Positions 6,522 through 29,770 of a DNA stretch of 54,147 nt are shown one piece after another (within the stretch, counting starts at the first letter, position 1; each line of letters opens with the position of its first letter). Under the pieces are notes generated by a model, which ran no database searches, had not been told where the DNA came from, and saw only the letters and a list, made by a program, of their open reading frames with translations. The position numbers and the translations under genes are program-made. The stretch comes from Crocinitomicaceae bacterium (GTDB lineage Bacteria > Bacteroidota > Bacteroidia > Flavobacteriales_D > Crocinitomicaceae): the NCBI GenBank assembly GCA_021738405.1, contig JAIPCC010000007.1, forward strand, positions 1 to 54,147, written 5' to 3'.

Positions 6522-6604
6522 GTCTGTGTATTTAACTTATTTTCCGGCCAAAAATAGCCTAGTTTTTTGGGATACAAAAATTGTGCCTATTATTATTTTT
6601 TGAA

Positions 6605-7513: not shown

Positions 7514-7520
7514 AGGAAAC

Positions 7521-7712: not shown

Positions 7713-7729
7713 ATTTATTTGGGAAAAAA

Positions 7730-7751
7730 AATCCCCATCGAGATGGGGATT
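7730..7751 (-). terminator. Intrinsic terminator after tonB
   Basis: A perfect 9-bp inverted repeat (AATCCCCAT / ATGGGGATT) with a CGAG-type four-base loop, followed on the minus strand by seven or more T. It lies 15 bases past the tonB stop codon and separates the exbB-tonB transcript from the small membrane protein and pstS-like genes. Confidence 0.9.
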
Positions 7752-7765
7752 AAAATTGGTTAGTG

Positions 7766-10780: not shown

Positions 10781-10819
10781 AATGATCGTTTTTAATTTTT
10801 CATTTTTACAATTGAACGC

Positions 10820-10852
10820 CAAATATAAAAAAACTTTAGCCCCTTTTCAAAA
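10820..10852 (-). promoter_or_regulatory. Bacteroidota-type promoter of the exbB-tonB operon
   Basis: On the minus strand TTTTG (10852-10848), a 20-base spacer and TATATTTG (10827-10820) match the TTTG-N19-21-TAnnTTTG consensus exactly. The predicted start lies about 35 bases before the exbB ATG. Confidence 0.75.
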
Positions 10853-11150: not shown

Positions 11151-11636
11151 ATGAGATTTTATTTAGTTGACAGAATCGTAGAAATTATTCCTGGGCAAAA
11201 GGCGTCAGGGATCAAATGTTGGACTTTATCAGAAGATTATTTCGCCGAACATTTCCCGGGTTTTCCTATCGTGCCAGGAGTGCTACAAATCGAAACAATG
11301 GCTCAACTCATGGGCATCCTTATTGAGCACTCACACGCCGAGGCCTTTCCGGGAGAAGGGCGTTGTTATCCGATTTTGAGCATCGTTCAAAAAGCGAAAT
11401 TCCGCGACGTGATCATTCCAGGCGATCAAAGTCATATTGAAGTGGTCCTGACTTCGCTCGACACCATGCGTGCAACAGGCAGTGCCAAATTGCTTGTGGA
11501 AGGAAAGGTGCGTGCCGAAGCCGACTTGAGCTTTACCATTTTAGAAGCGAAACAAGCGAGCAACAACCCGTTTATTAGCCAGCGCGACGAATATTATTTG
11601 TCTTTAAATGTAAAGGATATGCTTAAAAAGCGCTAA
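11151..11636 (+). CDS. 3-hydroxyacyl-ACP dehydratase, FabZ-like hotdog protein
   Basis: First gene of the thirteen-gene ketosynthase locus. The 161-residue protein has the FabZ active-site signature HFPGFPIVPGVLQIETMAQ with the catalytic pair His34 and Glu48, so it should dehydrate 3-hydroxyacyl-ACP to trans-2-enoyl-ACP. An in-frame ATG lies 81 bases upstream, but the encoded extension is Cys/Lys-rich and unlike the family, whereas MRFYLVDRIVEI is the usual FabZ opening. Its stop overlaps the next start by one base (TAATG). Since it sits with KS, KR and ACP genes, it is probably specialised to this pathway and not the housekeeping FabZ. Confidence 0.88.
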   Translation: MRFYLVDRIVEIIPGQKASGIKCWTLSEDYFAEHFPGFPIVPGVLQIETMAQLMGILIEHSHAEAFPGEGRCYPILSIVQKAKFRDVIIPGDQSHIEVVLTSLDTMRATGSAKLLVEGKVRAEADLSFTILEAKQASNNPFISQRDEYYLSLNVKDMLKKR

Positions 11637-12664
11637 TGCTCGCAAGAATCACAGCTATCGGATTTTGGGAAAGCACACTGTTTTCTGTTGACGGAAGCAT
11701 CGGGCCGCGCGCTGAACTTTTACCCAATTTGGCAAAAACTCAGCGGCAACTTCCGAATCTAGATGCCGCATTTAGACAGTTGGGGCTCGATCCAACGCAT
11801 CCAAATTACCCCAAGCCCAGCGATCTTAAAATTTTGAGAAATGATACCATCGCTGCGCTCATTTTGAGCCAGCAAATGCGGGCTTTTCATCAATGGGACG
11901 CTGCTTTTTTAGAGCAGGGGGCGCTACTTGTGGCCAATAGCAATTTTATCGACGACGACGTACTCGATTTTGAAGCAATTGCAGCTGCGGTCAATCAGTT
12001 GCAAAATGCCCAAGACCCTGCAACAGAAAATAAATTATTTGGTTCTACCATTTCACCGCTTCTTCCACTTCGCACCTTAACCAATGGCGCCCAAAGTTTT
12101 ATTGCCCAGTATTTGGGCTTTCACGGGACCGCCACCACCTATGGAAGCACCGGAATTGCCAGCGCACAAGCCTTGCGCGATGCATGTAATTTATTGCAAA
12201 TTGGCGCAAGCCCAGCGGTGTTGGTTGGCGGCTGCCATTACGCCAATTTGTTTTCTTTTCTCAATAATTGCTTGCTCTTGTCGGACACAAAAGGATATGC
12301 CGAAGCGAGCGCTGCAAGTTTTTTAATGTTGACGCCTTATGATCCAGGTCAGACGGGCCCAAATCATTTACATATTACTCAATTTTATTGCGAGCTTGCA
12401 GCGCTTGAAGGAGAACACGTAGATTGGTTGTTCTATGGTGGCGCATTTACACCACAGCAAGACGCCGAGCTGCAAGCGCGTTGCAAACATTTGTGCTATC
12501 GCGAAGCCTTTAGTTGGTTTGCACACACTGGCAACCTAGGAGCAGCCGAACTCGGAATGCTCTTGGCTGCATCAGCAAACTGGCTGCAAATTGGCCAAAC
12601 GGCAGTCATTGTTTTGCAGGACGCATATGGTGTTGTTGAACTGTTTAAAGTCCAAAAGGCATGA
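11636..12664 (+). CDS. Ketosynthase-like protein lacking the active-site cysteine (chain-length-factor type)
   Basis: 342 residues with a thiolase/ketosynthase fold: the nucleophile-elbow region reads YGSTGIASAQAL at residues 169-180, where catalytic KS enzymes have ACSSSMQA; Gly173 stands where the cysteine should be. The GASPAVLVGGCHYAN segment matches the KS strand that follows. Loss of the nucleophile and pairing with a complete KS (next gene, four-base overlap) fit a KS-beta or chain-length-factor subunit of a heterodimer, as in aryl polyene and aromatic polyketide systems. The N-terminal part is divergent, so the assignment rests on fold motifs and context. Confidence 0.75.
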   Translation: MLARITAIGFWESTLFSVDGSIGPRAELLPNLAKTQRQLPNLDAAFRQLGLDPTHPNYPKPSDLKILRNDTIAALILSQQMRAFHQWDAAFLEQGALLVANSNFIDDDVLDFEAIAAAVNQLQNAQDPATENKLFGSTISPLLPLRTLTNGAQSFIAQYLGFHGTATTYGSTGIASAQALRDACNLLQIGASPAVLVGGCHYANLFSFLNNCLLLSDTKGYAEASAASFLMLTPYDPGQTGPNHLHITQFYCELAALEGEHVDWLFYGGAFTPQQDAELQARCKHLCYREAFSWFAHTGNLGAAELGMLLAASANWLQIGQTAVIVLQDAYGVVELFKVQKA

Positions 12665-13929
12665 GCAGGGCAAAAGTATACATACTCGACACCCATACCT
12701 TGAGTCCGCTAGGACTGGGCACCGAAGCGCTGTTGGCATCTTTGCAAAACCAGCACCAAGCTACGGCTCCAATTAGCCAGTTCGATGCGGCAGGTTTGAG
12801 CCAAACCCATGCTTGCGAAGTGGCCCAGGCTCATTTAGCGCAGCTTCAAGAACTTTCAGAGGCCTGGCAAGTTGTGGCGGCCAACGATCGAAAATTTGCG
12901 CTTTGGGCCAGTGTTTTAGAAAGCAAGCGCACTGCATTACAAGCTTTATTTGGCAAAACTTCAAAAGCGAGAACAGCGCTTTTTCTTGGCTTGGGCGCCA
13001 ATGCTTTTCCGGTTCAGCGCATTGCCATGTCTGTTGCAGACTATTCCGCATTTGGGCTGAACGAAGCCATTGCCCAACTTAATTTCTACAATGGCAAAAA
13101 AGCCAATTCCATTTTCAATCATGCCGATTTATATGGCGCCTATTTTGCACAAGAAATTGCGCCCTTCGGTTTTTGCCGCAACTTAATGACCGCTTGCTCG
13201 AGCAGCATGCAGGCCATCGCTTTTGGCGCCGCTCACATCATGGCGGGGCAAGCCGATTTAGTGTTGGCTGGGGGCACGGACTCGATCATCAATCAGTTTG
13301 CCTATATTTCTTTTGGTAAGTTGGGTGTTTTGAGCCCCGACCAATGCAAGCCTTTTGATACGGGGCGCAATGGCACTATTGCAGGTGAATGCGCGGGATA
13401 TACGCTCTTGGCCTCTGAAAAATTTGTCCGCGAAAACTGTTTGCAACCCCGAGCTGCTTTAATTGGTTTTGGCAACAGCATGGATGCGTACAAAATCACT
13501 GCTCCCGACCCAAGTGGGGCAGGAGTAGAGCGCGCATTGCGCAGTGCGTTGGAAATGGCGCAATTGCCGCTAGATGCTTTAGATTACATCAATGCCCACG
13601 GCACAGGCACGCGATCCAACGACGAAGCAGAGCTGCGGGCCATTGAGCGCGTTGTTGGCGCTGCGGCACCCCACATTGCTGTAAGTTCAACCAAAGACCG
13701 TCACGGACATGCCATTGCCGCCGCAGGAATTCAAGAGTTTCACGTGCTCACGACCTGCATGGCCAATGACCTCATTCCAGCTAATCTCAGTTGCAGCCAG
13801 CCCATTCAAAGCTCACTTGCATTGCCTTTTGAAAGCAATCAGACCAAGCAAATCAGGTATGCGCTCACCAATAATTTTGCATTTGGCGGTGTCAATTGCA
13901 GTTTAGCACTAGAAAACTTAGCCCTATGA
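12661..13929 (+). CDS. Beta-ketoacyl-ACP synthase (catalytic KS)
   Basis: 422 residues with the full ketosynthase triad: Cys179 in TACSSSMQA, His313 in NAHGTGTRSNDEAE, and Lys345/His350 in STKDRHGHAIAAAG. It should perform decarboxylative condensation of malonyl-ACP onto the growing chain, probably as a dimer with the cysteine-less partner encoded just upstream. The final helices (NNFAFGGVNCSLAL) are the normal FabF-type end. Overlaps of four bases (ATGA) at both ends imply translational coupling with its neighbours. Confidence 0.93.
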   Translation: MSRAKVYILDTHTLSPLGLGTEALLASLQNQHQATAPISQFDAAGLSQTHACEVAQAHLAQLQELSEAWQVVAANDRKFALWASVLESKRTALQALFGKTSKARTALFLGLGANAFPVQRIAMSVADYSAFGLNEAIAQLNFYNGKKANSIFNHADLYGAYFAQEIAPFGFCRNLMTACSSSMQAIAFGAAHIMAGQADLVLAGGTDSIINQFAYISFGKLGVLSPDQCKPFDTGRNGTIAGECAGYTLLASEKFVRENCLQPRAALIGFGNSMDAYKITAPDPSGAGVERALRSALEMAQLPLDALDYINAHGTGTRSNDEAELRAIERVVGAAAPHIAVSSTKDRHGHAIAAAGIQEFHVLTTCMANDLIPANLSCSQPIQSSLALPFESNQTKQIRYALTNNFAFGGVNCSLALENLAL

Positions 13930-14681
13930 ATCTCGATTTAAAAGATAAAGTAGTTTGCATCACGGGCGCTTCAGGCGGCATCGGTTTGGCACTTGTGCGC
14001 GCTTTTTTGGAAGAGGGCGCCATCGTCTGTGCGATGTATCACCGCAATTTATCGGCTCTTGATGCGCTGCGCAGCGAGCTCTCGACGGCGCAGCAAAGTC
14101 AATTAAATCCTTACCGGCTCGACCTTCAAGACAACGATAGCCACAAAACCGCCATTGCCGCTATCTGCAGCGCACATCAGCGCATCGATATTCTAGTGAA
14201 TTGCGCGGGTTCAGCATTGGAAAAGCCATTTTTGCTCTTAACGCCCGAAGAAATTGCCCAGCAGGTCACGACGAATTTCAGCCAACAGGCGCTATTTACG
14301 CAACAAGTTGCCAAGATCATGCTCGCACAACGCAAAGGCAGTATTGTCAATGTATCGAGTTTGCTTGCCAAGCGCTTGGGCAGAGGGGTAGCGGTTTATG
14401 CTGCAGCAAAAGCGGCAATCGACCGATTTACGCAAACACTCGCTTTAGAGGTGGGCAAGAAAGGCATTCGGGTCAATAGCGTGAATCCTGGCCTGATCGC
14501 CACCAAAATGAGTAAAAATATTCTAGCCAATATGCCTCCAGACCTCATGAACATGAGCCCTATCTCCAGACCGGGCAGGCCAGAAGAAATAGCCAATGCA
14601 GTTTTGTTTTTGGCTTCAGACCGCGCGGCAAGTTACATCACGGGCGTTTGTTTATCTGTTGATGGCGGCCTTAGTATTTAA
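13926..14681 (+). CDS. 3-oxoacyl-ACP reductase, FabG-like SDR
   Basis: 251 residues of the classical short-chain dehydrogenase family: TGASGGIG nucleotide-binding motif near residue 17, NCAGS, catalytic Ser in NVSSLL, and Tyr158/Lys162 in YAAAK. It ends in SVDGGLSI, the usual FabG-like C-terminus. It should reduce the 3-ketoacyl-ACP made by the upstream KS using NAD(P)H. The start MNLDLKDKVVCITG gives a four-base overlap with the KS gene; an earlier in-frame ATG would overlap it by 34 bases and adds no conserved residues. Confidence 0.92.
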   Translation: MNLDLKDKVVCITGASGGIGLALVRAFLEEGAIVCAMYHRNLSALDALRSELSTAQQSQLNPYRLDLQDNDSHKTAIAAICSAHQRIDILVNCAGSALEKPFLLLTPEEIAQQVTTNFSQQALFTQQVAKIMLAQRKGSIVNVSSLLAKRLGRGVAVYAAAKAAIDRFTQTLALEVGKKGIRVNSVNPGLIATKMSKNILANMPPDLMNMSPISRPGRPEEIANAVLFLASDRAASYITGVCLSVDGGLSI

Positions 14682-14702
14682 TTTCAAATTTATAGATCAA
14701 AC

Positions 14703-15098
14703 ATGACACAAAACGAAGAAATCATCGAACAAATCAAGCGCATTATTCAGCAATCTTGTGGAATTGACCCTGAGGTCATGCAGGCTCATTCGACCATTTT
14801 TGATGAATTGAGCATTGATTCAATTGATATGGTAGATATCTTGTTTCAGCTCGAAAGACATTACGACATCGAACTTAAAATCTCAGAAATTGAGCAGCAA
14901 TCTAAGCTAGAAATGGGTGATGAGCCATTTGAAGTCAATCAGGTGATCACGGCCAAAGGACTAGACGTATTGCGCCGCCGTATGCCCGAAATTGACCCAG
15001 AGAAACTCACTGAAGGCCTCACGATGTTTGAAGTCATTAAATTGATCAATATTCAAAGTTTGGCGAATATGGTAGCGCATCAGCTTGCTAAAAAATAA
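14703..15098 (+). CDS. Acyl carrier protein, long form
   Basis: 131 residues, longer than the usual 75-80. The phosphopantetheine site is Ser40 in LSIDSIDMVDI, followed by the ACP helix LFQLERHYDIELKISE. Between this and the last helix an insertion of about 40 residues (GDEPFEVNQVITAKGLDVLRR and onward) is followed by GLTMFEVIKLINIQSL, which resembles the C-terminal end of ACPs. It is presumably the dedicated carrier for this locus. It follows the reductase by 21 bases, the largest gap in the operon. No phosphopantetheinyl transferase gene is present nearby. Confidence 0.88.
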   Translation: MTQNEEIIEQIKRIIQQSCGIDPEVMQAHSTIFDELSIDSIDMVDILFQLERHYDIELKISEIEQQSKLEMGDEPFEVNQVITAKGLDVLRRRMPEIDPEKLTEGLTMFEVIKLINIQSLANMVAHQLAKK

Positions 15099-15102
15099 TT
15101 AG

Positions 15103-16242
15103 ATGCAAGGAGTCATTTATCGCAGCGCGGCGCAAGATCAGCTTTACGGCTTTGGCGATCCTATTTTGGAGGTCCCGATCCTGAACGAAAGTTTAGGACA
15201 GTATCAAGCGCGTATATGTGCGGCTTGTGGTTTTACAATAGTAGATGTTTCGTCTGTGGCAGACTTGCCTTCATCCGATTTTCCGCTATGGTATTTTGAT
15301 GCAAAAATGCTCTTCACGCTAGACTTTTTGAAGGCAGCAATCCAAGAAGCCAACACCCAGGCACATTCTTTTTTACAATTTGGACTCAAAAAATTGCAGT
15401 CTGTTCAGCAACATGCTTTACCGATAGCACAGCAAGACCCTGAGCTCATCTTTCCATTCTACTACAAAGGCAGTGCAGCTGAAGCACAAGCCACACGCAT
15501 TGATTTAGCAGGAAAAGAGTACGAATGGCAGATCCAAATGCCAAGTCAGGTACTGCCAGGTGGCGTTTATAGTTTGAATCAAAATCCGGTCTTTGCCACT
15601 TTGTTGTTGTCGCCGTTTCATTTGCATGGCGCCAATATGGCCTTGAATTTAAACAGAGGACTCCAACTCCAAGCACTGCTCCCTGATTGGCTGCGCAAGC
15701 GCATTTCCAAACCCTTCACCAAACTGACATCAATTGGCTTGAAGGCCATGAACCAAAAAGGCAAGAATTGTCGGATCCATCCGAGTGCTGTGGTGGAAGG
15801 ATGTGTGCTCGGCGACGACGTCACAGTGGGCGCCAATGCGGTATTGCGCATGAGCGTTATTGGAAGCGGGACTTTTATCGGCGATACAGCGGTGGTCAGT
15901 TTTTCTGTACTTGGCCCAAATAATTTCGTCAGCACGGGCAATCATTTGGTGAATAGCCTCACGTATCCATCGGTTTTTACCATCCATGGGCCTTATCAGT
16001 ACAGTGTTTTTGGCCGGAATTCAGCGGTGTTTGCCACCATCAATTCGGACATCCGACTCGATGCCAAAACAATCAAGATTCCAACAGCCATCGGCGTCTG
16101 CGATTCCGGTCAAATTTTACTTGGTGTCGCTTACGGACACCGCGCTAAAATTGGCGGTTCGAATATCATCGCTGCGGGCCGCTTGGTGCCCAATGATTAT
16201 GTCTTGAACCCACCAGATTTCATTACCCTGAATTTCGACTGA
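15103..16242 (+). CDS. Hexapeptide-repeat (left-handed beta-helix) protein of unknown function
   Basis: 379 residues. The first 200 or so are not recognised. From about residue 222 the sequence shows isoleucine/valine-spaced hexapeptide repeats (CRIHPSAVVEGCVLGDDVTV, then GANAVLRMSVIGSGTFIGD), as in GlmU-like transferases and nucleotidyltransferase-associated beta-helices. The last 90 residues include a Gly/Ala-rich segment (GRNSAVFATINSDIRLDAK). No signal peptide. Four bases after the ACP gene and one-base overlap with the next, so it belongs to the pathway. It may transfer or modify an acyl or polar head group, but no catalytic residue can be named. Confidence 0.65.
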   Translation: MQGVIYRSAAQDQLYGFGDPILEVPILNESLGQYQARICAACGFTIVDVSSVADLPSSDFPLWYFDAKMLFTLDFLKAAIQEANTQAHSFLQFGLKKLQSVQQHALPIAQQDPELIFPFYYKGSAAEAQATRIDLAGKEYEWQIQMPSQVLPGGVYSLNQNPVFATLLLSPFHLHGANMALNLNRGLQLQALLPDWLRKRISKPFTKLTSIGLKAMNQKGKNCRIHPSAVVEGCVLGDDVTVGANAVLRMSVIGSGTFIGDTAVVSFSVLGPNNFVSTGNHLVNSLTYPSVFTIHGPYQYSVFGRNSAVFATINSDIRLDAKTIKIPTAIGVCDSGQILLGVAYGHRAKIGGSNIIAAGRLVPNDYVLNPPDFITLNFD

Positions 16243-17318
16243 TGACGCAACCAGCATATATAATTGGTGCTTACGGTTATACAGCACAGTTGGTCGCGGC
16301 AAAAATGGCCGAGTCAAATTTGGAATTTATAGCTGTTGGCCGGGATCAGTCCAATCTTGCGCAAGTGCAGCAGCGCTTTGCCAATTGTGTTGGCCTCATC
16401 GTTGCAGATTGTCAGCATGCTGCAGAGATAGATTTTGTGGCAAAAGGGGCGCTTGTGGTAAACTGCGCCGGGCCGTTTAATCTTTTTGCGCCCGAACTCA
16501 TTAGCCGCTGTGTGGCTGTTGGTGCTCATTATATAGATATCACCGGAGAACAAGAAATTGTGCGCCACAGTTATGAGCACCATGCCGCTCTTGCCCTGCA
16601 AAACGAAGTTTGCGTGGTCCATTCCATGGCTTTTGAGTCGGCCTTGACCGATTTATTAATAAGCAGGGCACTGCTAAAGACCGATCGTAAAGCTCTAACA
16701 GCAGTGAATTCTTACTACAAATTGGGGAGTCAGCAAATGAGCCCAGGTACCAAACTGACCATGAAACTCGCGAATTTTGCGCCCAATTACATCGTGCAAG
16801 ATCAGCGCTTGCAGCCTTTGTTGCAACAAATGGCAGAGGTCCCTCAAGATTTGCCCTTTGACGCTGCTCGAATCGTGCCTTACCCAGAGGTTATCTTTGC
16901 TTTTGAACGCCTCAAACCGCAGCGTGCTGCGTCGCATTTTGTGCTTGAACCAGACAGTAATTTAGCTTTTGCGGGCAACTTTGCCAAGATGGGTACGAAC
17001 AATTCAGCGCAACAAGAAGCAATCGTGCAGCGCTTCAAAAACGTGCAACATGTGGGCCCTGACGCTGCTGCAAGATCAGCACAAGATTTTGAACTTTATG
17101 TGTCTTTGCTTTGCGCAGATAAAAATTATGTCGAGGCCATTCGAGGTCATAATATGTATGAAATAACCGCCGCTCTGGTCGTTTTGGCCGTACAGCACTT
17201 CGCTGCGCAGCCAACACACTTTGGGGTGCTGAGTCCGGGTCAATTTCTAGGTCAAAAAGGCTTAGATTGGCTCTCCAACAACCCCTATTTTCAGTTCATT
17301 AGTCTTAAATCCAATTGA
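16242..17318 (+). CDS. Saccharopine-dehydrogenase-like protein, candidate trans-acting enoyl reductase
   Basis: 358 residues. The N-terminus (YIIGAYGYTAQLVAAKMAE) is a Rossmann nucleotide-binding fold of the saccharopine dehydrogenase NADP-binding type, followed by NCAGPFNLFAPELISRCVAV and HYIDITGEQE, a pattern shared with the mycobacterial trans-acting enoyl reductases that work with polyketide synthases. Its place between ACP, KS, KR and DH genes makes enoyl reduction the most sensible role, but substrate and activity are inferred. Overlaps the hexapeptide-repeat gene by one base (TGATG). Confidence 0.72.
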   Translation: MTQPAYIIGAYGYTAQLVAAKMAESNLEFIAVGRDQSNLAQVQQRFANCVGLIVADCQHAAEIDFVAKGALVVNCAGPFNLFAPELISRCVAVGAHYIDITGEQEIVRHSYEHHAALALQNEVCVVHSMAFESALTDLLISRALLKTDRKALTAVNSYYKLGSQQMSPGTKLTMKLANFAPNYIVQDQRLQPLLQQMAEVPQDLPFDAARIVPYPEVIFAFERLKPQRAASHFVLEPDSNLAFAGNFAKMGTNNSAQQEAIVQRFKNVQHVGPDAAARSAQDFELYVSLLCADKNYVEAIRGHNMYEITAALVVLAVQHFAAQPTHFGVLSPGQFLGQKGLDWLSNNPYFQFISLKSN

Positions 17319-17323
17319 TCGAG

Positions 17324-20053
17324 ATGCAAAAATTCAGGTTTACATTGCATTTGTTGGTTTTCCCGGTCTTGCAGCTAATGGCCATGCTGGGTTTATGGAT
17401 GCTTCCACTTGCTGGTATAGCCCACCTAGCATTGGTTTGTTTGGCGGCCTTTTTGCTGAATTGGAACTTGCATGTGAGCGTTCACCACTTGGTGCATCAT
17501 CCGCCAAAGCATAAAGGCATCCGCAATTTGTGTTACCTGTTTGCTTCCTTACTACTTGGTCTCCCGTTTCATTATTATCAGCTCATTCACCGCAATCATC
17601 ATTTCTTCAACAACGAACCTGGCGATTTTACAAGTACCTGGAAACTTCAAGATGACAAGCTCAAGCAACGTCCATTTTGGTCTTATGTCCTATTTTGGTG
17701 GGTTCCTATCGTTCCGTTGCGCAAGCAAATTGAAACAGCTAAAGCCGCTGGATGGTTGAGTCAGAAAGGTGCGCGCTTTTTACGTTTAGAGCTGCTTTTG
17801 ATTCTGCTCTTTTACGTATTGCTCTTTTTACTAGTTGGTTGGAAAGTCCTGTTGTATGCACTACTTGTTTATTTGGGCTGGGTGCTGATCAGCGCTCAAA
17901 ATTATGGCCAGCACCTACCAGCAGATCCGGAAATTCAAACGACTAGCATTCACAAGAAGTGGTATAATGACTTGACACTTAATAATGGCTTGCACCACGA
18001 ACACCATCAGAAACCACAACTCAGTTATGATCTTTTAGAGAAAGACCAAAACTTAAAAGCAATAGAACAGCCTCATTTGACTGCCGGATTTTGGCCAAAA
18101 GCTTGGAAAGGCAGTTTTGTGGTGACGGTGCTGCTCATTTTAGGTCTTTTAGCTCAGCTGCCGAGGTTGCAAATGACCGGTAGCTTAGATGGTTTTGCTG
18201 CAGGTGCTACGCCAGTTTTTAACGATGCGCGCGCTTATGATTCCATTTTTGGACAAAGTAAATACCGCTATTATTGGAGCATCACGCCGAGCCCAAATGC
18301 CAAACTAAGTTTTCTAAGCGCTTGCACCGAATTTGAGCAAGCACTAAAAGCCCAGACACCTGAGCTCGAGTTGCTCAGTTCGGCGCGTCAGTTGCGCAAA
18401 TTCTCCCAATTGCGCTTGTATCCAAAGCACATGGCTGCAAGCGATTTTATGAAAATTGCAGCCAAACATCCGCAACTTGGCAAGCTCATTTCAAAAGATG
18501 AGCGCTCGTTTTTGCTGATTGCAGATTACCACGGTGTTGCCATTCCCTTGAAAAAAGTGACGGCGCTACAAGAACAAGCGCGTCCTCAAATCGAGGAAAT
18601 AAGGGGTTTTGGCATGCAAGGGCTCGAGGCGGCCATCGCCAGCTCCATGCAAGAAGATATCGTAACCATTACAGGACTCATCTTTATTTTATTTGGCGCT
18701 TACTTATTTTGGCGTTACCGACATTGGAGTGCGATCGTTTATTTGGTGGGCAATATGCTGTTGTCTATTATCCTGACGGTTTGTTTGTTCCCGGTCTTTG
18801 GCTTTCAAATGACGGTGGTGAGTATCCTCGCCTTGCCGATTGTACTGGTGCTGTCTTTGAGCGATGCCATTCACTTACTCGGCGGACTCGCTAAAGGGCA
18901 GACGAGCAGCACAACCATTTCAAAAATATGGGTGCCATCCTTACTGAGTAGCCTCACCACGGCCATTGCCTTTTATAGTTTTTATTTCAACGACGCGCCC
19001 AACATGGTGCAGCTTGGCATGGTCACCGGAACGGCCGTATTGTTGGAATTCTTAGTTTCCATGGCTATGGCCCAGCAATTTTTACACAAGGTGCGTTTGC
19101 GCAATGCAGAAAGCCAACTCATGCGCGCAACGAGTCATTTTTTGGAGCGCCGACAAAAAGCCATTGGTTGGGCATTGTTGGGCTTGGTATTGGTTGCGGT
19201 GTTCATGCTGCCAAAGTTGCGCTTCGATGCGAGCACCGACGATTTCTTTCCAGATGGGCACCCCGTGACTAAAGAACATGCTTATTTCAGGAGCCAATTT
19301 GATGCCCAAAAAGTACTGCATCTTTGGTTTGATAAACAAGACAATGAAGCACAGCAGCGCCGGCAAGTTGAGGCTTGGCTTGGGCAACAAGAGGCACCAC
19401 AGCTCATCGGCTATGACTTCAAACCACAAACTGCCGGCCAACCCTTGGCTGCAAGTATTTATTTTTCGGACACCAAGGCAATCGGGGCCTTTTACAAAAA
19501 ACTCGAGCGGCAGGGGGAGTTGCGCAAGCAGCATTTGGGCCTGCACGCATATAGTCCGTTTGTGGTTTTTGATGTCGTGAACCAACAAGTGGCGGCATCT
19601 TTGTTTTGGAGCTTGCTCACGGCAAGTTCAGCAATAGTATTACTCATGTTATGGCTGACTCAAAATCCGCTGCAGGCGTTGCTAGGGTTTGTCCCGAATT
19701 TAGTTCCTCTTGCGGCCGTGGTGGTCTTTTTTGCTGGTTTTGACCAAGGCCTCAATATGCTCACTGCACTTACTTTGGTGGTGTGTGTGGGCCTGCTCGA
19801 CGACGACACCATCCACGTGTTGTATCAAAAGTATGTTTTGCGTGCGCCGATAGCACAAATGAATCCGGTCATTATACACGCCGCAGTGCTACTTGCATTA
19901 GGTTTTGGTTGTTTTGTCTTGAGTAATTTCAAGCCAACGCGCTTATTTGGTGGTGTAAGTGCCTTGGTTTTCGTGGTGGGTCTGCTCGGTGAACTCACGT
20001 TATTTCAATGGATTTTAAATCAATTCAAAAAGGAAAACAATGACCAACACTAA
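17324..20053 (+). CDS. Fusion of membrane fatty-acid-desaturase domain to RND/MMPL-type exporter
   Basis: 909 residues from ATG 17324 (a TTG nine bases earlier is in frame and would overlap the upstream stop). Residues 1-255 are a membrane di-iron desaturase/hydroxylase: histidine boxes at His50-59 (HVSVHHLVHH), His89-93 (HRNHH) and His224-228 (HHEHH) between hydrophobic helices. From about 264 comes a compact RND permease: one helix, a periplasmic domain (280-445), a five-helix block with LSDAIHLLGG (Asp514), a second repeat, and LLDDDTIHVL (Asp826-828) in the last block, both matching the D-x-IH proton-relay motif of HAE3/Patched-like transporters. The frame is continuous. A desaturase fused to an exporter is unusual; it would modify and export the locus product or a lipid. 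It overlaps iorA by 14 bases. Confidence 0.88.
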   Translation: MQKFRFTLHLLVFPVLQLMAMLGLWMLPLAGIAHLALVCLAAFLLNWNLHVSVHHLVHHPPKHKGIRNLCYLFASLLLGLPFHYYQLIHRNHHFFNNEPGDFTSTWKLQDDKLKQRPFWSYVLFWWVPIVPLRKQIETAKAAGWLSQKGARFLRLELLLILLFYVLLFLLVGWKVLLYALLVYLGWVLISAQNYGQHLPADPEIQTTSIHKKWYNDLTLNNGLHHEHHQKPQLSYDLLEKDQNLKAIEQPHLTAGFWPKAWKGSFVVTVLLILGLLAQLPRLQMTGSLDGFAAGATPVFNDARAYDSIFGQSKYRYYWSITPSPNAKLSFLSACTEFEQALKAQTPELELLSSARQLRKFSQLRLYPKHMAASDFMKIAAKHPQLGKLISKDERSFLLIADYHGVAIPLKKVTALQEQARPQIEEIRGFGMQGLEAAIASSMQEDIVTITGLIFILFGAYLFWRYRHWSAIVYLVGNMLLSIILTVCLFPVFGFQMTVVSILALPIVLVLSLSDAIHLLGGLAKGQTSSTTISKIWVPSLLSSLTTAIAFYSFYFNDAPNMVQLGMVTGTAVLLEFLVSMAMAQQFLHKVRLRNAESQLMRATSHFLERRQKAIGWALLGLVLVAVFMLPKLRFDASTDDFFPDGHPVTKEHAYFRSQFDAQKVLHLWFDKQDNEAQQRRQVEAWLGQQEAPQLIGYDFKPQTAGQPLAASIYFSDTKAIGAFYKKLERQGELRKQHLGLHAYSPFVVFDVVNQQVAASLFWSLLTASSAIVLLMLWLTQNPLQALLGFVPNLVPLAAVVVFFAGFDQGLNMLTALTLVVCVGLLDDDTIHVLYQKYVLRAPIAQMNPVIIHAAVLLALGFGCFVLSNFKPTRLFGGVSALVFVVGLLGELTLFQWILNQFKKENNDQH

Positions 20054-21857
20054 GCTGCAAACACAGGCCGAGAAAGTTTGGGCGCTCAATGGAAATGAGG
20101 CGCTGGCTTATGGTGCACTCCATGCTGGTGTGGCTTATTTTGCACATTATCCGGGTTCGCCCGTCAATGGGATCGAACCTGTATTGAAACAACTCAATAC
20201 ACAACATGCCGCCCAAATCACCTTTAACGACGCGCTCAATGAGCACGTTGCTGCCTGTGCTGCGATGGGCGCAAGCATGACGGGTGCGCGCACAATGCTC
20301 GTGATGAAACACGTCGGGCTCAATATTGCCGCAGACCCGCTGAATTATGTGGGATATGCAGGCATCAAAGGCGGAATGCTCATTGTGGTGGGCACCGACC
20401 CTGGGGCTAATTCGAGTACCGGAGAAGAAGACGTGCATTGGTACGCCAAACAATTTAATTTGCCATTGTTTGAACCCACGAGTCCGCAGGCGCTTTATGA
20501 TTGCTGCCGAGACGGGTTTGCGCTTTCAGAAGAACTGGGCTTACCCATTCTGATTTTCGTGACGGGCTTGATTTGTCATCAAAGTACGCGGGTACAAACG
20601 CATGAAATTACGCCAGTGAAACGCGCGTATTATTTCGAAAAAGACCGCGATCGGTATATAAATGTGGGCCAACGCGCTGTTCAAAATCACCGCTTGTTGC
20701 TCGAAAAAATGGCGGTTTATGCCCAAACTCACGCTTTTTTGAAAGTGGACGGACCTACAAACGCCCCTTTGGCCGTGATTACAAGAGGCAATACCACGCT
20801 GCACTTTGCTGAAATTCAGACTTACATTCCGCAATTAGCCAATTGTACCTGGATCCAACTCAACGGAGTATATCCGCTACCAACTGCTGCATTATTGCCC
20901 CTGCTCCAAGACAAAACGGAGATCATTGTGATGGAAGACCAAGATGGGTTTGTGGAGTACTTGCTCAAAATGGAAATGTACAATGTACTCAGCGCAAAAA
21001 TTCAGGGTAAAAATTTATTTCCTGCTTATGGAGAATTGCGCATCAATGAACTGCTAGAAATTTTATGTGCCTACTTTGGCGTAGCTTATCCGTTTGCAGG
21101 CTTGCCGAGCTTGCCTATTCCGGAGCGCTTGGGAACATTTTGTGAAGGCTGCCCACACACCGGAAGCTATTTTGCCATCGAACAAGCGCTGCCCGAACAA
21201 GAACGCATCATTGGCGGCGATATCGGCTGCTCTTCTTTGCCTCCTTTTCGGGCAGATTGGTTACTGTGCATGAATGCCGGTATTGGCCTCGCGCAGGGCA
21301 TGGCGCCGTTTGTGAGTAGTCAAAAATTAGTGTCCACAGGTGGTGACGGCAGCTTTTTTCATGGAGGTTTACTTGCGGTGCTCAATGCCGTTCAAAATAA
21401 AGTCAATTTAGTGCATTTGGTCTTTGACAACAAAAGCGTCGCCATGACCGGCCATCAAGCCTCTGCTTCTACCCAAGTAGCTTATGCAGATTTGCTGCGT
21501 TCGTTGGGCGTTGCTTCTTTTGCCGAGGCCAGTGCTTTTCATCCCAAAGAACTAGAGGCTTTGGTCAGAGAAAAGGAACAACTCGAAGGGGTACATGTCA
21601 TTTGGGTCAGTGGTGCTTGTGCGCAAATCCCAGATGCCCGTTCCAACTTTAGACGCGCCAATTATGCGCCGCAAATTGATGCCAGCAAATGCGCCTCGTG
21701 CACGCTCTGTTATGAGGCTTTGGCCTGCCCCGCAATTGATCAAAATGATTTAGGTCAGTTTCAGATCGATTTGTCTCGTTGTATGCGCTGCGGGGTTTGT
21801 CATGAAATTTGTCCGAACGATGCCATCGATTTAGGCGCCAAAAATCTGCAAGCATGA
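20040..21857 (+). CDS. iorA: Indolepyruvate:ferredoxin oxidoreductase-type alpha subunit
   Basis: 605 residues, the usual IorA length. It has the pyrimidine-binding transketolase-like domain first (GNEALAYGALHAGVAYFAHY), the thiamine-diphosphate domain with GGDIGCSSL and STGGDGSFFHGG (about 397-445), and two C-terminal [4Fe-4S] clusters: CASCTLCYEALACP and CMRCGVCHEICP. The complex oxidatively decarboxylates 2-oxo acids, classically aryl pyruvates, to acyl-CoA with reduced ferredoxin. It is mostly known from anaerobes and archaea. Here it is embedded in a ketosynthase operon, where it might provide starter acyl-CoA; that link is inference. Confidence 0.92.
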   Translation: MTNTKLQTQAEKVWALNGNEALAYGALHAGVAYFAHYPGSPVNGIEPVLKQLNTQHAAQITFNDALNEHVAACAAMGASMTGARTMLVMKHVGLNIAADPLNYVGYAGIKGGMLIVVGTDPGANSSTGEEDVHWYAKQFNLPLFEPTSPQALYDCCRDGFALSEELGLPILIFVTGLICHQSTRVQTHEITPVKRAYYFEKDRDRYINVGQRAVQNHRLLLEKMAVYAQTHAFLKVDGPTNAPLAVITRGNTTLHFAEIQTYIPQLANCTWIQLNGVYPLPTAALLPLLQDKTEIIVMEDQDGFVEYLLKMEMYNVLSAKIQGKNLFPAYGELRINELLEILCAYFGVAYPFAGLPSLPIPERLGTFCEGCPHTGSYFAIEQALPEQERIIGGDIGCSSLPPFRADWLLCMNAGIGLAQGMAPFVSSQKLVSTGGDGSFFHGGLLAVLNAVQNKVNLVHLVFDNKSVAMTGHQASASTQVAYADLLRSLGVASFAEASAFHPKELEALVREKEQLEGVHVIWVSGACAQIPDARSNFRRANYAPQIDASKCASCTLCYEALACPAIDQNDLGQFQIDLSRCMRCGVCHEICPNDAIDLGAKNLQA

Positions 21858-22378
21858 AGCAAGAATTGCGCATACTCATTGCCGGAGTCGGCGGGCAGGG
21901 CATTCACGGTTTTGTGCGCGTGCTGCAACAAGCGATGACCGAACAGGGTTATGAATTCATTAGCGCGCGTTACAAAGGCGGCGCTCAAAGCTTGGGTAGT
22001 GTGCATGCAGAATGTAAAATCTTTTTGAGCGCAGCCCAAGCAAATGCACAGCAAAGTAGCCAGTTGATCCCAGGCACGCTCGATATTTTGCTCGGCCTTG
22101 AACGCTGGGAAACACTGCGTTTTTTACCTTTTTGCCATGCCAATACACTCATTGTGGCCGACACCTTTACCGAATTTCCGCCCGGAACCAAGCGCAGTAA
22201 AGATCTTCCAAGTATCGACACCTATTTTGCCAATTTGACCAACCCGCTGATCAGTAGGGATTTCATCCAACTTGCACAAGAGAAAGGCTGGTCAAAAACA
22301 GCTGTTCCTATTTTACTTTTTAACGAGGCCATTCGTTCGCTTGGCCTCACACAATTTATTCAACCGCTTAAACCTTAA
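21854..22378 (+). CDS. iorB: Indolepyruvate:ferredoxin oxidoreductase-type beta subunit
   Basis: 174 residues, starting MKQELRILIAGVGGQGIHG: the GVGGQG motif is the signature of the gamma-type domain of pyruvate/2-oxoacid ferredoxin oxidoreductases. The segment SARYKGGAQSLGSVHAE resembles the IorB region that carries SEVHGMAQRGG-like sequences. It overlaps iorA by four bases (ATGA), so the two subunits are translationally coupled. The beta subunit is shorter than many IorB proteins (about 190-200 residues) but complete at both ends. Confidence 0.88.
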   Translation: MKQELRILIAGVGGQGIHGFVRVLQQAMTEQGYEFISARYKGGAQSLGSVHAECKIFLSAAQANAQQSSQLIPGTLDILLGLERWETLRFLPFCHANTLIVADTFTEFPPGTKRSKDLPSIDTYFANLTNPLISRDFIQLAQEKGWSKTAVPILLFNEAIRSLGLTQFIQPLKP

Positions 22379-22382
22379 TAAC

Positions 22383-23750
22383 ATGAATTGGAAAGAAAAC
22401 TCTAGAGTAGCCATGCACTGGCACACCAACGAACAAGGCAATAAAATTGTCTGTGACCTTTGCCCAAGACATTGTCAGACCCAAGCTGGCCAGATGGGAT
22501 TTTGTAAAGTCAGGGGCAACGTCGACGGTACTTTTCATACCTTCAATTTCGGTAAATCCGTGACGGCAACCCAAGAGTGTATAGAAACCGAGGCGGTCAA
22601 TCATTTTATGCCAGGGGCGCGCATCCTGAGCTTGGGCAATATCGGCTGCATGATGGCGTGTTCGTATTGTCAGAACTGGCAAACTTCTCAAATCAAGCAC
22701 CTCAACGATGCCAATGTGTTCGAATATACGCCCGAACAAGTGATTGAACTTGCCGTTTCCAACGATATCAAAGTCATTTCCTGGACTTACAATGACCCAG
22801 TGGTATGGCATGAATTTGTGTTGGAGACTTCCAAACTAGCCAAGGCAGCTGGGCTTACCACTTTATATAAATCGGCGCTTTACATCGAGCTCGAGCCACT
22901 GCGCGAACTGATCGAAGTCATCGATATCTTTTCGATCTCGCTCAAATGTATGGACGACGCCATTTACCGCAAAGAGAACAAAGGCAAACTCCAACCTGTG
23001 CTCGATGCAATCGAGCTTATTGCGGCCTCCGACCGTCATTTAGAAATTTCGCAATTAGTGGTGACCGGGCTCAATGACGACGGCACAGACGCCATCAAAA
23101 CAGCGCGCTGGATGCGCGAAAAACTCAAGCCAGAAGTGCCACTGCATTTGGTGGCTTATCATCCGAGTTTCAAATACAAAAAACCGCGCACTGAATTGGC
23201 AACGCTACTCAAACTGCGCGAGCTCGTCCTCAACGAAGGGCTGGAATACGTATATTTAGGTAACGTATATGCCGACGACATGAGCAATACGTATTGTAAA
23301 TCTTGTTCTCATTTGCTAGTGGAACGATTTGGGCTTTCGGTGCAGGTGCCAGGTCTAGATGCGCATGGGAATTGTAAAAATTGTCAAACGCCTTCCGTTA
23401 TTCGAGATGCATTAGGCGGACAACCATCCGAAAAACCGGTCCTTGCACCATTTGTTGCCGAACAAACGTATGCTTTTGAATGGAACGAAGAAATCAGATC
23501 AGTTCATATTTTCTTGGAGCGTCCGCAAAAAGATACCGTACGCATCCAATTAAAGCGGATGCCGTCTAATACGGTGCAATATCTTGAACTCAATGAAGGG
23601 CTTGAACGCATCATTTTATCCAAAAGTAGTGCAGAAGAAACACAGCTGATCATTGAAACGGCTTGCCAAACGCCACTGCATATTTTGCCAGTACTTGACC
23701 GTGCACATTTCCCCGTTATTGATGAAACCAAAGCATCTAGTTATGCATAA
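22383..23750 (+). CDS. amrS: AmmeMemoRadiSam-type radical SAM enzyme with C-terminal extension
   Basis: 455 residues from MNWKENSRVAMHWHT, four bases after iorB. The N-terminal cysteines C24, C27, C31 and C41 (CDLCPRHC ... GFCKVRG) and the radical SAM cluster C89-x3-C93-x2-C96 (CMMACSYC) followed by QNWQTSQ identify the AmrS family. A zinc-ribbon-like pair CKSC/CKNC sits near residues 302-338, where AmrS proteins usually end; about 110 further residues of unknown fold follow. Neither AMMECR1 nor Memo partner is in the window. The substrate is unknown. Its place directly after iorAB suggests a role linked to that complex. Confidence 0.85.
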   Translation: MNWKENSRVAMHWHTNEQGNKIVCDLCPRHCQTQAGQMGFCKVRGNVDGTFHTFNFGKSVTATQECIETEAVNHFMPGARILSLGNIGCMMACSYCQNWQTSQIKHLNDANVFEYTPEQVIELAVSNDIKVISWTYNDPVVWHEFVLETSKLAKAAGLTTLYKSALYIELEPLRELIEVIDIFSISLKCMDDAIYRKENKGKLQPVLDAIELIAASDRHLEISQLVVTGLNDDGTDAIKTARWMREKLKPEVPLHLVAYHPSFKYKKPRTELATLLKLRELVLNEGLEYVYLGNVYADDMSNTYCKSCSHLLVERFGLSVQVPGLDAHGNCKNCQTPSVIRDALGGQPSEKPVLAPFVAEQTYAFEWNEEIRSVHIFLERPQKDTVRIQLKRMPSNTVQYLELNEGLERIILSKSSAEETQLIIETACQTPLHILPVLDRAHFPVIDETKASSYA

Positions 23751-24864
23751 ACTGACCCAAATCTTAAAACAACGCGTAGATACGACCAACGCAGCCCCTG
23801 TTGTCACGCCTATTTATCAGAACAGTGCTTTTGAAGCGCATTCACCCTTCTTCTATACACGCAAGAACAATCCAAATGTCGAAGAGTTGGAACAGGTTTT
23901 TTGCGCATTGGAGGAGTCTGCACATGCGGTTTGTTGCTCGACTGGCATGGCTGCCATTTCCAATACGCTACTTTTGTTGAAACCAGGTGATCATTTGGTC
24001 ATCAATCAGCTCATTTATGGTTGTTCTTATGTCTTGTTTGAACGGTTTTGCGAACAATATCAAATTGCACTGACCGTACTTGATCTAAGTACCCAAGAGG
24101 GAATTTTAGCCATCCCTCAGCAGGTTACTATGGTTCTATTTGAGACACCTACCAATCCATTTGTGCGCAGCATTGACATTGCAGTCGTCGCCCAACAGGC
24201 TAAAAAGCATAATCCGTCTTGTTTGATTGTTGTAGACAACACGTGGGCAACGCCATTATTCCAACAACCACTTTTGCACGGCGCTGACCTTGCTTTGTAT
24301 TCAGCAACCAAATACTTTTCTGGTCATAGCGACGTCATGGGCGGCGTACTCACCACCAACGATGCCAATCTTGCCCAAAAATTGCGAGACGCGCGCTTTT
24401 ATCATGGCGCAGTCATGGATCCGAACAGTGCTTGGTTATTGCGCCGAAGCATGCAGACCTTCACCATCAGGATGCGTGCACATGGCCAAGCAACCACTCA
24501 AATTTGGGATTGGTTGGCCTCACAAAGTGGGGTAGAGGAAGTTTTTTATCCGGATGTCGATGGCCAACAATTAACAGGCTATGCCACTTTGTTGTTTTTT
24601 ACGCTCGATGCCAAGTTGAGCGAACGCTATGATGAATTTGTGGCGGCCCTCCAACTTTTTGACACCGGCACCGGAATGGCCTGCGTTACCTCAATGGTTG
24701 CCCGACCTTTTACAGGAAGCCATGCCTCCATGAACGAGCAGCAAAAACAGCAAATGGGCCTCACTCGTCAGTTGGTTCGCCTGAGTATTGGCTTAGAAGA
24801 AGTCGAGGACCTCATCGCCGACCTTCAACAAGCATTTGACCATATTGGTGCCCATGATGAATGA
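23743..24864 (+). CDS. Cys/Met-metabolism PLP-dependent enzyme (cystathionine gamma-lyase/synthase family)
   Basis: 373 residues with the fold-type I signature of the family: TGMAAISNTLL (residues 67-77), Asp165 in VVDNTWATPLF, and the Schiff-base Lys190 in LYSATKYFSGHSDVMGG. The family includes methionine gamma-lyase, cystathionine gamma-lyase/synthase and O-acylhomoserine sulfhydrylase, which cannot be told apart here. MHKLTQIL is taken as start, overlapping the radical SAM gene by eight bases; MKPKHLV 21 bases earlier is possible. A lyase of this family could produce 2-oxobutyrate, a plausible substrate for the IorAB-like complex. Confidence 0.82.
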   Translation: MHKLTQILKQRVDTTNAAPVVTPIYQNSAFEAHSPFFYTRKNNPNVEELEQVFCALEESAHAVCCSTGMAAISNTLLLLKPGDHLVINQLIYGCSYVLFERFCEQYQIALTVLDLSTQEGILAIPQQVTMVLFETPTNPFVRSIDIAVVAQQAKKHNPSCLIVVDNTWATPLFQQPLLHGADLALYSATKYFSGHSDVMGGVLTTNDANLAQKLRDARFYHGAVMDPNSAWLLRRSMQTFTIRMRAHGQATTQIWDWLASQSGVEEVFYPDVDGQQLTGYATLLFFTLDAKLSERYDEFVAALQLFDTGTGMACVTSMVARPFTGSHASMNEQQKQQMGLTRQLVRLSIGLEEVEDLIADLQQAFDHIGAHDE

Positions 24865-25957
24865 CACGCTAGATCGGCAAAATTCATTTTTGCGTGCCTG
24901 CGCCATGCTCTCGCTTTTGTACTTGCACCTGGCATTGAGTTTTACTTGGATACCAAATTTATATGGCATTTGGCCAATTGTGGTAACTGAGCCGAGCATC
25001 AGTCTCACGGGCTTCGCGTCATTTTTGAATCTATTTGGACTTCTCTTGTTCTTTATTATTTCTGGGTTTTCAATAAGAAATAAAGCGTTAGCCCATGAAC
25101 GTTATTTGCTGCAAAAAGTACAGCAAAACAGCTCGAGATTTTTAAAGTATTACATTTTGCTATCGCTAGTCTTTTACTTGTTGTTGTCTGTTTCTAAGTG
25201 GCGCTTTTTGGCCTTCAATGAATGCAAATTTTTAGCCTCATTTTACCATTTGTGGTTTTTAGCAGCCCTTGCGGTTTTCCAGTTGCTCCTCGCATTTGCT
25301 CGGCAATTTTATAAATCACGACTTGATAACCTGCGCATTCCGCTTGTCATTCCTTTGATCATTCACTCCGTTGGTCTATTTCTACAAGGGGGTGTTTTTT
25401 TGAAAACGCCGACACAACTCGATTCGTCAACCCTATTAAGCATCGGTGTCTACTTCTTTTGGTTTGTATATGGCTTCACCCTGAGCCAAGGTCCTTTTCG
25501 TTTGTCCAAACCGTTTTCGCTAGTTAGATTATTTTTAGGTGTAGGATTAGTTGGCCTCTATTTTTTAGCCAAGACAGCCCTTATTTTTTCTTGGCATTTT
25601 GGCTTTTTTTGGAAGCTGCTTAGCTCAGTGCTCGACCCGCTGACCTTTTTAGCCGCCCTACAATTTTGCTTTTGGCTCTTTGAAAAATTCGCCAAGCGCC
25701 AACAACCAAGGCCTGCCAATCAACTACAGACTTTCATGCAGCGTTATCAACTGCCTATTTATGTGTTCCAGATTCCGCTGATATTTATGCATTTGGCATT
25801 TTTTGAATATTTGGGTCTTTTGAATTTCGCAAGTTCAACATCAAATCATGTTGTTGTAAACTGGACAGAGTCCGTGCAAACTTGGGCGTTGTTTATCTTA
25901 CTCAGCCTACTTTCTTTGGTATACATTTATAACATTAACAAATATTTAAAGCGTTAG
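24854..25957 (+). CDS. Multi-pass membrane protein, acyltransferase-3-like
   Basis: 367 residues with about ten hydrophobic helices. The opening (RACAMLSLLYLHLALSF), the FFIISGFSIRNK turn and YHLWFLAALAVFQLLLAF fit the OafA/NodX acyltransferase-3 family, whose members transfer acyl groups to sugars or lipids at the inner membrane. The usual catalytic arginine-histidine pair is not clearly conserved, so the family call is moderate. Two successive ATGs (24854, 24857) overlap the PLP gene by 11 or 8 bases. It is the last gene of the ketosynthase operon; no clear terminator follows. Confidence 0.6.
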   Translation: MMNDTLDRQNSFLRACAMLSLLYLHLALSFTWIPNLYGIWPIVVTEPSISLTGFASFLNLFGLLLFFIISGFSIRNKALAHERYLLQKVQQNSSRFLKYYILLSLVFYLLLSVSKWRFLAFNECKFLASFYHLWFLAALAVFQLLLAFARQFYKSRLDNLRIPLVIPLIIHSVGLFLQGGVFLKTPTQLDSSTLLSIGVYFFWFVYGFTLSQGPFRLSKPFSLVRLFLGVGLVGLYFLAKTALIFSWHFGFFWKLLSSVLDPLTFLAALQFCFWLFEKFAKRQQPRPANQLQTFMQRYQLPIYVFQIPLIFMHLAFFEYLGLLNFASSTSNHVVVNWTESVQTWALFILLSLLSLVYIYNINKYLKR

Positions 25958-27084: not shown

Positions 27085-27094
27085 CGAAACGACT

Positions 27095-28006: not shown

Positions 28007-28036
28007 ACGCTGATCATTCGGTTGGAGAAACTCGTG

Positions 28037-29571: not shown

Positions 29572-29587
29572 AACATTTGAATAATCA

Positions 29588-29765: not shown

Positions 29766-29770
29766 AGATG

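Follow-up and report, generated by a model that had tools for sequence, protein, structure and literature searches.

A ketosynthase operon of a Crocinitomicaceae bacterium as one form of a candidate two-part lipid pathway

Comparison with described systems

Two described systems invite comparison with the locus treated here. The aryl polyene cluster of Escherichia coli CFT073 extends from apeB to apeR (PMC8253772), and the cispentacin proteins AmcF and AmcG form a highly reducing type II polyketide synthase (PKS) with a degenerate partner (PMC10698177). The locus is a block of thirteen genes at positions 11151–25957 of contig JAIPCC010000007.1 from a Crocinitomicaceae bacterium; the window analysed is the whole stretch of 54,147 nt in which this block lies. 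All thirteen genes are on the + strand, and the largest intergenic gap is 21 bases. A ketosynthase (KS) module is followed by genes for a left-handed beta-helix protein (HEX), a desaturase (DES), the oxidoreductase subunits IorA and IorB (IorAB), an AmrS-like radical SAM enzyme and a pyridoxal phosphate (PLP) enzyme of Cys/Met metabolism (CGS). Across several phyla, IorAB travel as a unit with the radical SAM enzyme, the PLP enzyme, the desaturase and HEX, and the KS set would be one of two lipid donors attached to this unit.

Like the aryl polyene cluster, the block combines a KS and a chain-length-factor-type partner with a ketoreductase (KR), a dehydratase (DH), an acyl carrier protein (ACP) and an RND exporter; unlike it, the block also encodes IorAB, the radical SAM and PLP enzymes, the desaturase, the beta-helix protein and a candidate enoyl reductase. 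Four of the 17 Ape proteins from ApeB to ApeR (ApeO, ApeR, ApeQ and ApeF) match the window at an E-value of 0.01, in a search insensitive enough to miss ApeM and the Ape dehydratases even though the window encodes RND-type and FabZ-like proteins. ApeH, for the activation of an aromatic acid, and the Lol-type and transferase proteins ApeD, J, K, L and N gave no match in the window in the same insensitive BLAST comparison. Activating ligase (acyl-ACP synthetase), LolA, DUF3261, thioesterase and glycosyltransferase families are absent from the 13 genes, as is the aromatic ammonia-lyase of flexirubin clusters. The cluster KS is 36% identical to ApeO, and in the KS tree a single branch separates the cluster KSs from ApeO, ApeR and FabF (support 100/100, on long branches). 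A first version of this tree included short rows, one of them a 45-residue fragment, and the split was unchanged when the tree was rebuilt without four rows. The original prediction that the block recalls aryl polyene loci without being one is borne out by the few Ape matches; the lack of activating, Lol-type and transferase genes, together with the KS tree, rules out an aryl polyene locus.

The KS module begins with a FabZ-like hot-dog dehydratase (DH, 11151–11636; PF07977) carrying HFPGFP and ETMAQ stretches. It is followed by a KS-like partner of the KS-beta or chain-length-factor type (11636–12664; a weak match to PF00109), KS-alpha (12661–13929), a FabG-like short-chain dehydrogenase/reductase as the KR (13926–14681; PF13561), and a free ACP with a DSID motif and a C-terminal extension (14703–15098; PF00550). 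Motif names in the translations of the block are those we take to apply. In KS-alpha, the TACSSS, HGTGT and RHGH motifs are in place, with Cys179, His313 and the His348/350 region present, and the protein falls on the separate branch of the KS tree. In all seven partner sequences, aligned with three cluster KSs, the catalytic Cys column is occupied by Gly, Ala or Ser and neither catalytic His is present, which upholds the earlier claim of a cysteine-less KS.

Judged from their sequences, these five proteins make up a synthase module of the highly reducing type II PKS type (KS-alpha, Cys-less partner, KR, DH and free ACP), of which AmcF–AmcG is a distant analogue. The likeness to that system lies in a KS whose partner lacks functional motifs, an ACP and a hot-dog protein (PMC10698177). 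The window KS scores 172.6 bits against the AmcF model (cut-off 325) and its DH 32 bits against that of AmcE (cut-off 140); unlike the cispentacin system, the block has no AmcH-type AMP acyltransferase and no AmcC-like aminotransferase among its 13 genes. A literature search, with subscription journals and preprints outside its reach, found this gene set described in none of the titles and abstracts returned. The half of the system formed by the KS module is recognisable as a type II synthase module; for the core on its own, we know of no counterpart.

One core in two arrangements

HEX is a specific marker of the cluster family. The block is rare. Of 199 genomes of the order, three encode a full-length HEX, and these belong to the genus; the same protein occurs in 1 of 395 genomes of a phylum sample and in 2 of 274 genomes (counting the central one) sampled around a gammaproteobacterial locus. 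In the phylum and class searches, no more than 5–7 candidates were scored for each genome. A HEX alignment scan of a species-genome collection returned 26 loci in several phyla, and since it used two short peptide patterns, more distant loci were missed. The loci are labelled as Bacteroidota, Bdellovibrionota-type families, Verrucomicrobia (Roseibacillus), Gammaproteobacteria and Planctomycetota, with single loci labelled Aquificaceae and Geobacteraceae. The gene-order search within Bacteroidota that was originally proposed was set too narrow for a family present in several phyla. Locus L079 is labelled Sphingomonadales yet its contig belongs to a member of the window's genus, and L094 carries a doubtful Aquificaceae label and an Lgt-like protein 91% identical to that of Leucothrix L093; both probably come from mislabelled or mixed metagenome-assembled genomes.

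Searches of these loci by tblastn with all window genes and a second probe set gave two ARRANGEMENTS (A and B) around one core, which consists of IorA, IorB, the AmrS-like radical SAM enzyme, CGS, a desaturase and HEX. The order in arrangement A is DH, KS-beta, KS-alpha, KR, ACP, HEX, a saccharopine-dehydrogenase-like protein (SDH), desaturase, RND, IorA, IorB, AmrS and CGS. It is found in the window, L078–L084 and L086–L088, and four of these contigs stop before CGS. Arrangement B (L090–L098, L100–L103 and L171) comprises IorA, IorB, AmrS, CGS, DES, an Lgt-like protein and HEX, with the KS module absent. It is complete in L094, L095, L097, L101 and L171, and is seen just as an Lgt–HEX pair in L090, L091, L093, L096 and L100. 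Loci L089 and L099 are cut.

Around the common core, a KS module and an Lgt-like gene are exchanged for one another. The KS-beta profile is present in all five A genomes tested and in none of eight others. HEX lies directly after ACP in the window and all ten other A loci. Of the 14 B loci that show the Lgt-like gene, 12 have HEX behind it (in L098 and L101 HEX lies elsewhere). SDH (16242–17318; PF03435), a candidate trans enoyl reductase for which a search of solved structures gave no hit, accompanies the KS module in the window and all ten other A loci and is absent from the 16 loci lacking that module. Four A genomes give weak Lgt matches, which are probably to ordinary Lgt. Among the seven A loci long enough to include CGS, CGS is present in seven, AmrS in six and IorAB in five, so that the linkage of IorAB to the cluster is strong but not universal. 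For the five core genes tested, the distances computed from identity are correlated with one another (0.70–0.94). A predicted metal-dependent hydrolase stands beside Lgt-type clusters in L095 (2006–2872; PF10118), L097 (126–941) and L171 (about 7639–8412), the latter two being homologues of the first.

The original prediction had IorAB supply an acyl-CoA starter. In its fuller form, the block would encode a single polyketide or fatty acid pathway started from an (aryl)acyl-CoA made by IorAB, with the radical SAM and PLP enzymes tailoring the chain. This would agree with the place of IorA and IorB in the operon in the window and in three genomes of the genus (G021, G078 and G260), and beside the operon in L087, and with the fact that no starter ligase was seen among the 13 genes. 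It is at odds with L085, L094, L095, L097, L101 and L171, where IorAB, AmrS, CGS, DES and HEX occur together without a KS module, with the absence of the KS-beta profile from all eight KS-module-less genomes tested (G793, the genome of L171, lay outside this test), and with L086 and L088, which have the KS module and no IorAB nearby. Because the core is kept without the KS module, IorAB are unlikely to be simply a polyketide-starter enzyme. The starter claim therefore did not hold up, and we consider a single pathway of this kind unlikely, though it deserves to be kept in view.

Within the genus, a full-length IorA match occurs in 4 of 86 genomes, each time beside cluster KS genes (a fifth match is weak and partial), which rules out IorAB as housekeeping genes of the genus; cluster-type KS (at least 44%) occurs in 5 of the 86. 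Genomes that stand under more than one handle (G021/L078, G078/L079, G260/L083 and G678/G783/L086) were counted once. The entire block is common to the window, G021 and G078, with its order kept and per-protein identities of 66–95% and 49–90% in the two other genomes. In G260, the first twelve genes of the window are collinear at 23–59% protein identity, with different flanks and no last gene. G250 has DH to ACP followed by SDH with no HEX between them, and its contig ends there. A further KS-rich locus of the genus (L076, on contig C14 of G109) has three KS matches, a KR and a weak DH match, and its KSs fall outside the cluster KS branch.

In the window, the block lies between an exbB/tolQ-like gene (9977–10822, − strand; PF01618) and a tRNA-Cys gene (29770–29841, − strand). 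The interval between these borders varies within the genus: exbB adjoins tRNA-Cys, leaving the site empty, in four block-less relatives (G034, G019, G012 and G008), and the block fills it in the window, G021 and G078. Empty and filled forms of one site indicate that the block was gained or lost as a single unit. The order kept in two genomes of the genus and in the divergent G260, together with the empty site in four relatives, shows that the clustering is not accidental. Four further genes separate the block from tRNA-Cys in the window (26038–29616), namely one PD40/TolB-like, one family-less and two FISUMP-domain genes; G021 and G078 do not have them there, and G034 has an apparent remnant of one. 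A plasmid location was set aside, since the desaturase–RND fusion protein matched none of 72,556 plasmid records.

The prediction of thirteen co-directional genes of named families with gaps of at most 21 bases and mostly overlaps was confirmed by Pfam and NCBIfam matches and by the choice of starts. The most plausible starts, chosen by reading, are KR 13926, IorB 21854, AmrS 22383, CGS 23743 and, for the acyltransferase-3 gene AT3, 24854. They leave three gaps (21 bases between KR and ACP, and two of 4 bases), and the remaining nine junctions overlap by 1–14 bases. The desaturase gene overlaps SDH if it starts at TTG 17315; the alternative ATG at 17324 would give a 5-base gap there. The last gene, AT3 (24854–25957; PF01757), encodes an Acyl_transf_3 membrane protein and is lineage-specific: its homologues among the loci are those of L078 and L079 only, which places it outside the wider conserved set. 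A different acyltransferase-3 gene lies upstream of DH in L073 (1794–2921) and L082 (4961–6055), at the other end from the window's own 3′-terminal AT3.

The oxidation slot and the core proteins

In each of the 11 loci of arrangement A, the desaturase position is occupied by a filler of one of three kinds. The DES filler occurs in the window, L078, L079, L080, L083 and L081 (the last cut by the contig end). A stearoyl-CoA-desaturase type related to acyl-CoA desaturase 1 occupies the slot in L082 (E-value 8e-16 to 4ymk) and L084, whose slot desaturases are 46% identical to each other. L086, L087 and L088 carry a radical SAM protein of the B12-binding type instead; the B12-binding domain exceeds the Pfam cut-off in the L087 and L088 fillers, falls just short in that of L086 and is not listed for the related protein of the B locus L096. 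The L087 protein is 65% identical to that of L088, and the L096 protein is 52% identical to that of L086; no other locus contains a homologue of these radical SAM fillers. When L087 is extended by L186, the remaining functions encoded by the first twelve genes of the window are all found on the same contig in rearranged order. At the genome level, the DES profile is positive in 13 of 17 genomes, a set that did not include those behind L082 and L084, and the four negatives are the genomes of L086, L087, L088 and L096, which have the radical SAM fillers. The gene set originally proposed for the search, with its desaturase–RND gene, is too narrow here as well, since the slot is not tied to one enzyme.

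In chlorophyll synthesis, AcsF and BchE are alternatives for one step, the former a di-iron oxygen-dependent cyclase and the latter a radical SAM cyclase. As in that pair, an oxygen-dependent di-iron type of enzyme and a BchE-family type of protein appear to alternate here, the best models for the L086, L088 and L096 slot proteins being HpnJ or BchE. Unlike it, the alternation is read from gene content, the scores lie far under the cut-offs, and there is no tetrapyrrole pathway. Judging from these sequences, some relatives seem to use the radical SAM protein in place of the oxygen-type DES step. The record titles of the genomes with radical SAM fillers (a sulfidic cave, two Rifle names and a Geobacteraceae label) would be compatible with low oxygen.

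In the window, DES forms the first part (about residues 1–260; PF00487) of a desaturase–RND fusion encoded at 17315–20053, the second part being an HpnN/HAE3-like RND half. The three histidine boxes of DES are invariant in 10 of 10 sequences, and its profile matched no solved structure. The RND half matches the HpnN and HAE3 NCBIfam models far under their cut-offs and, searched alone, has no Pfam match; the homologous G260 protein passes the Pfam cut-off for MMPL. The predicted fusion was found to hold for the window and its two nearest relatives and to give way to separate adjacent genes in G260, which rules it out as a defining trait.

The best hint at an acyl chain as the substrate of this step is the stearoyl-CoA-desaturase type of filler in L082 and L084. 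The same filler speaks against the possibility that the core makes a small-molecule product which the KS module or the Lgt-like protein merely anchors, with DES acting as a small-molecule hydroxylase and no acyl desaturation taking place. The Roseibacillus locus L085, which has the core without either donor, and the presence of DES in the core of both arrangements are what such a pathway would predict, and on balance we think it improbable. At L096 (Geobacteraceae-labelled), the neighbours of the Lgt–HEX pair (1846–8379) are two radical SAM proteins, an alpha/beta hydrolase and one protein that combines a FeeM-like N-acyl-amino-acid-synthase part with a PhnW-like aminotransferase part; this is a possible hint at an amino-acid head group.

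HEX (15103–16242) was modelled by AlphaFold from 26 sequences with a pLDDT of 92.2 and a pTM of 0.91. The modelled fold comprises a Rossmann-like N-domain and a left-handed beta helix, as in nucleotidyltransferases of the GlmU/ST0452 type; the nearest solved folds are ST0452, eIF2B, GMPPA/B and GlmU, and the match to 5z0a has a Z-score of 29.4 over 296 aligned residues with a root-mean-square deviation of 3.0. The fold is common to beta-helix acyl- and sugar-transferases. What we take to be the nucleoside triphosphate (NTP)-binding signature, GxGTRxxP, was not seen by eye at the N-terminus of HEX when its 26 rows were aligned, and conservation is highest in the stretch VFxIHGPYQ of the beta helix. 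On these two grounds, we read HEX from its model as a transferase of the beta-helix kind whose nucleotidyltransferase-like domain is degenerate.

IorA (20040–21857) would be a 2-oxoacid oxidoreductase subunit with thiamine pyrophosphate and two [4Fe-4S] clusters, in which the GDG...N and ferredoxin motifs are in place. Its score against the TIGR03336 equivalog is 407.7 bits, under the cut-off of 650.9; by sequence, it is a relative of indolepyruvate ferredoxin oxidoreductase that misses the curated equivalog score. IorB is encoded at 21854–22378 (PF01558).

The AmrS-like enzyme (22383–23750) has its CxxxCxxC motif in place and scores 291 bits against TIGR04337 (AmmeMemoRadiSam; cut-off 220). 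In this it resembles the AmmeMemoRadiSam system of AmrS with Memo and AMMECR1, from which it differs in that none of the eight A genomes searched encodes Memo and in that most cluster AmrS proteins have an extra C-terminal domain. Memo was found in 4 of 16 genomes searched, all of the Lgt type (4 of 7 of that type). The extra C-terminal beta domain has a DRAHxP motif that is invariant in the 10 aligned sequences and present also in L102, L103, L171 and L098; three generic AmrS proteins of the class align at most to residue 336 of 455. The AmrS model (pLDDT 79.6) matches mostly radical SAM enzymes, best the PFL-activating enzyme, and the structure search with this model did not name the C-terminal domain.

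CGS (23743–24864; PF01053) has a YGCS motif, which takes the form YGC[ST] in 14 of 14 sequences, and its SATK motif is in place; Tyr-Gly-Cys is presumably an active-site motif as in methionine gamma-lyase. CGS reaches 261 bits against the methionine gamma-lyase model TIGR01328 (cut-off 549.7), and RF[YF] stands at the place of the Lys240–Asp241 pair that we take to be that of methionine gamma-lyase.

The Lgt-like proteins of the B loci share with Lgt, the prolipoprotein diacylglyceryl transferase, the PF01790 domain (over the cut-off in the three tested) and GR... and RFxxExxR-type motifs. They differ from it in having MGG or LGG at the place of what we take to be the HGG motif of Lgt, with HCC[YF]G as the next motif in 13 of 13, and in a low NCBIfam score (50.7 bits for the L094 protein; cut-off 334).

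Proposed pathway and its alternatives

The substrates, step order, head-group role of the core, export and product set out here are those that we infer. In the first part of the proposed pathway, the core would make and attach a small group, the head group. CGS would eliminate or replace the substituent of an amino acid, giving a 2-oxoacid or a substituted amino acid; IorAB would convert the 2-oxoacid to an acyl-CoA and reduced ferredoxin, and the latter could drive the radical SAM step of AmrS. The second part would be the lipid donor. That of the window would be a highly reducing type II PKS or fatty acid synthase building a chain on ACP, with SDH reducing enoyl intermediates as a trans enoyl reductase. 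HEX, encoded beside the donor, would transfer the chain from ACP to the product of the core, so that no thioesterase would be needed. DES, or its replacement, would desaturate or hydroxylate the chain, and the RND protein would export the product. In other bacteria, the donor would be the Lgt-like protein, presumably handling a diacylglyceryl group from phospholipid. The original prediction envisaged a saturated or partly unsaturated, exported acyl product; a partly saturated and exported one stays a good guess, SDH being found only with the KS module.

This two-part model rests on several lines of evidence: the same gene order in G260 at 23–59% identity with other flanks, and gain or loss of the block at one site; the two arrangements on one core, with the KS-beta split, HEX beside the donor and SDH with the KS module only; and the invariably filled oxidation slot, the fold that HEX shares with acyl- and sugar-transferases and the correlated distances of the core genes. 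Several observations weigh against it. L085 carries six core genes without either donor, the available DNA of the B loci L098, L102 and L103 has no IorAB, and IorAB are not near L086 and L088, nor AmrS near L088, with the neighbouring 15–20 kb included. In L087, AmrS has no extra C-terminal domain, and the Lgt-like proteins are without the residue that we take to be essential in Lgt. HEX is also near to nucleotidyltransferases, its transferase role being read from the modelled fold, and the window is far from cultured strains. In unrooted FastTree trees of the core genes (10–17 rows, no outgroups), arrangement B falls on its own side for HEX (support 1.0) and DES (0.984), and the IorA, AmrS and CGS trees do not separate A from B. 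HEX and DES thus look as if fitted to the donor and the other three do not, which is a hint only. Taken as a whole, a dedicated pathway to an acyl lipid of the cell envelope that is either exported or kept in the membrane, combining a group made by the core with an exchangeable donor and an obligatory C–H oxidation, appears to us evenly poised between right and wrong.

The other alternatives fare worse. A divergent pigment locus of the aryl polyene or flexirubin type would account for the KS and chain-length-factor-type pair, KR, DH, ACP and RND protein and for the resemblance of the KS to ApeO. It is very unlikely in view of the few Ape matches (in an insensitive test), the separate KS branch, the missing ligase, LolA, DUF3261, thioesterase and glycosyltransferase genes and the presence of a candidate enoyl reductase. 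That two unrelated operons lie together by accident, as the separation of the halves in L085 might suggest, is scarcely credible when the halves occur together in all seven A loci long enough for CGS, diverged and with rearranged order in L087/L186, and chance clustering was ruled out by that locus and G260.

A wider form of the two-part model, which we put forward tentatively and regard as rather doubtful, is a single pathway in several phyla to an undescribed class of lipids. A group made by IorAB, a Memo-independent AmrS and the PLP enzyme would be joined by HEX to a type II polyketide chain or, via an Lgt-like enzyme, to diacylglycerol, with an obligatory C–H oxidation by a di-iron desaturase in oxygen-using lineages or by a BchE-family radical SAM enzyme in others. 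If this is true, the BchE-family enzyme would match an acyl desaturase in function while working independently of oxygen, and the slot proteins are candidate radical SAM enzymes for acyl-desaturase work without oxygen. The Lgt-like fold would gain a candidate new use, and a Memo-free genomic context is at hand for the extended family of AmrS-like radical SAM enzymes. What was an anonymous operon resembling a type II PKS would become one member of a defined, testable pathway family with exchangeable halves, the product of which would be a new lipid or polyketide marker across several phyla.

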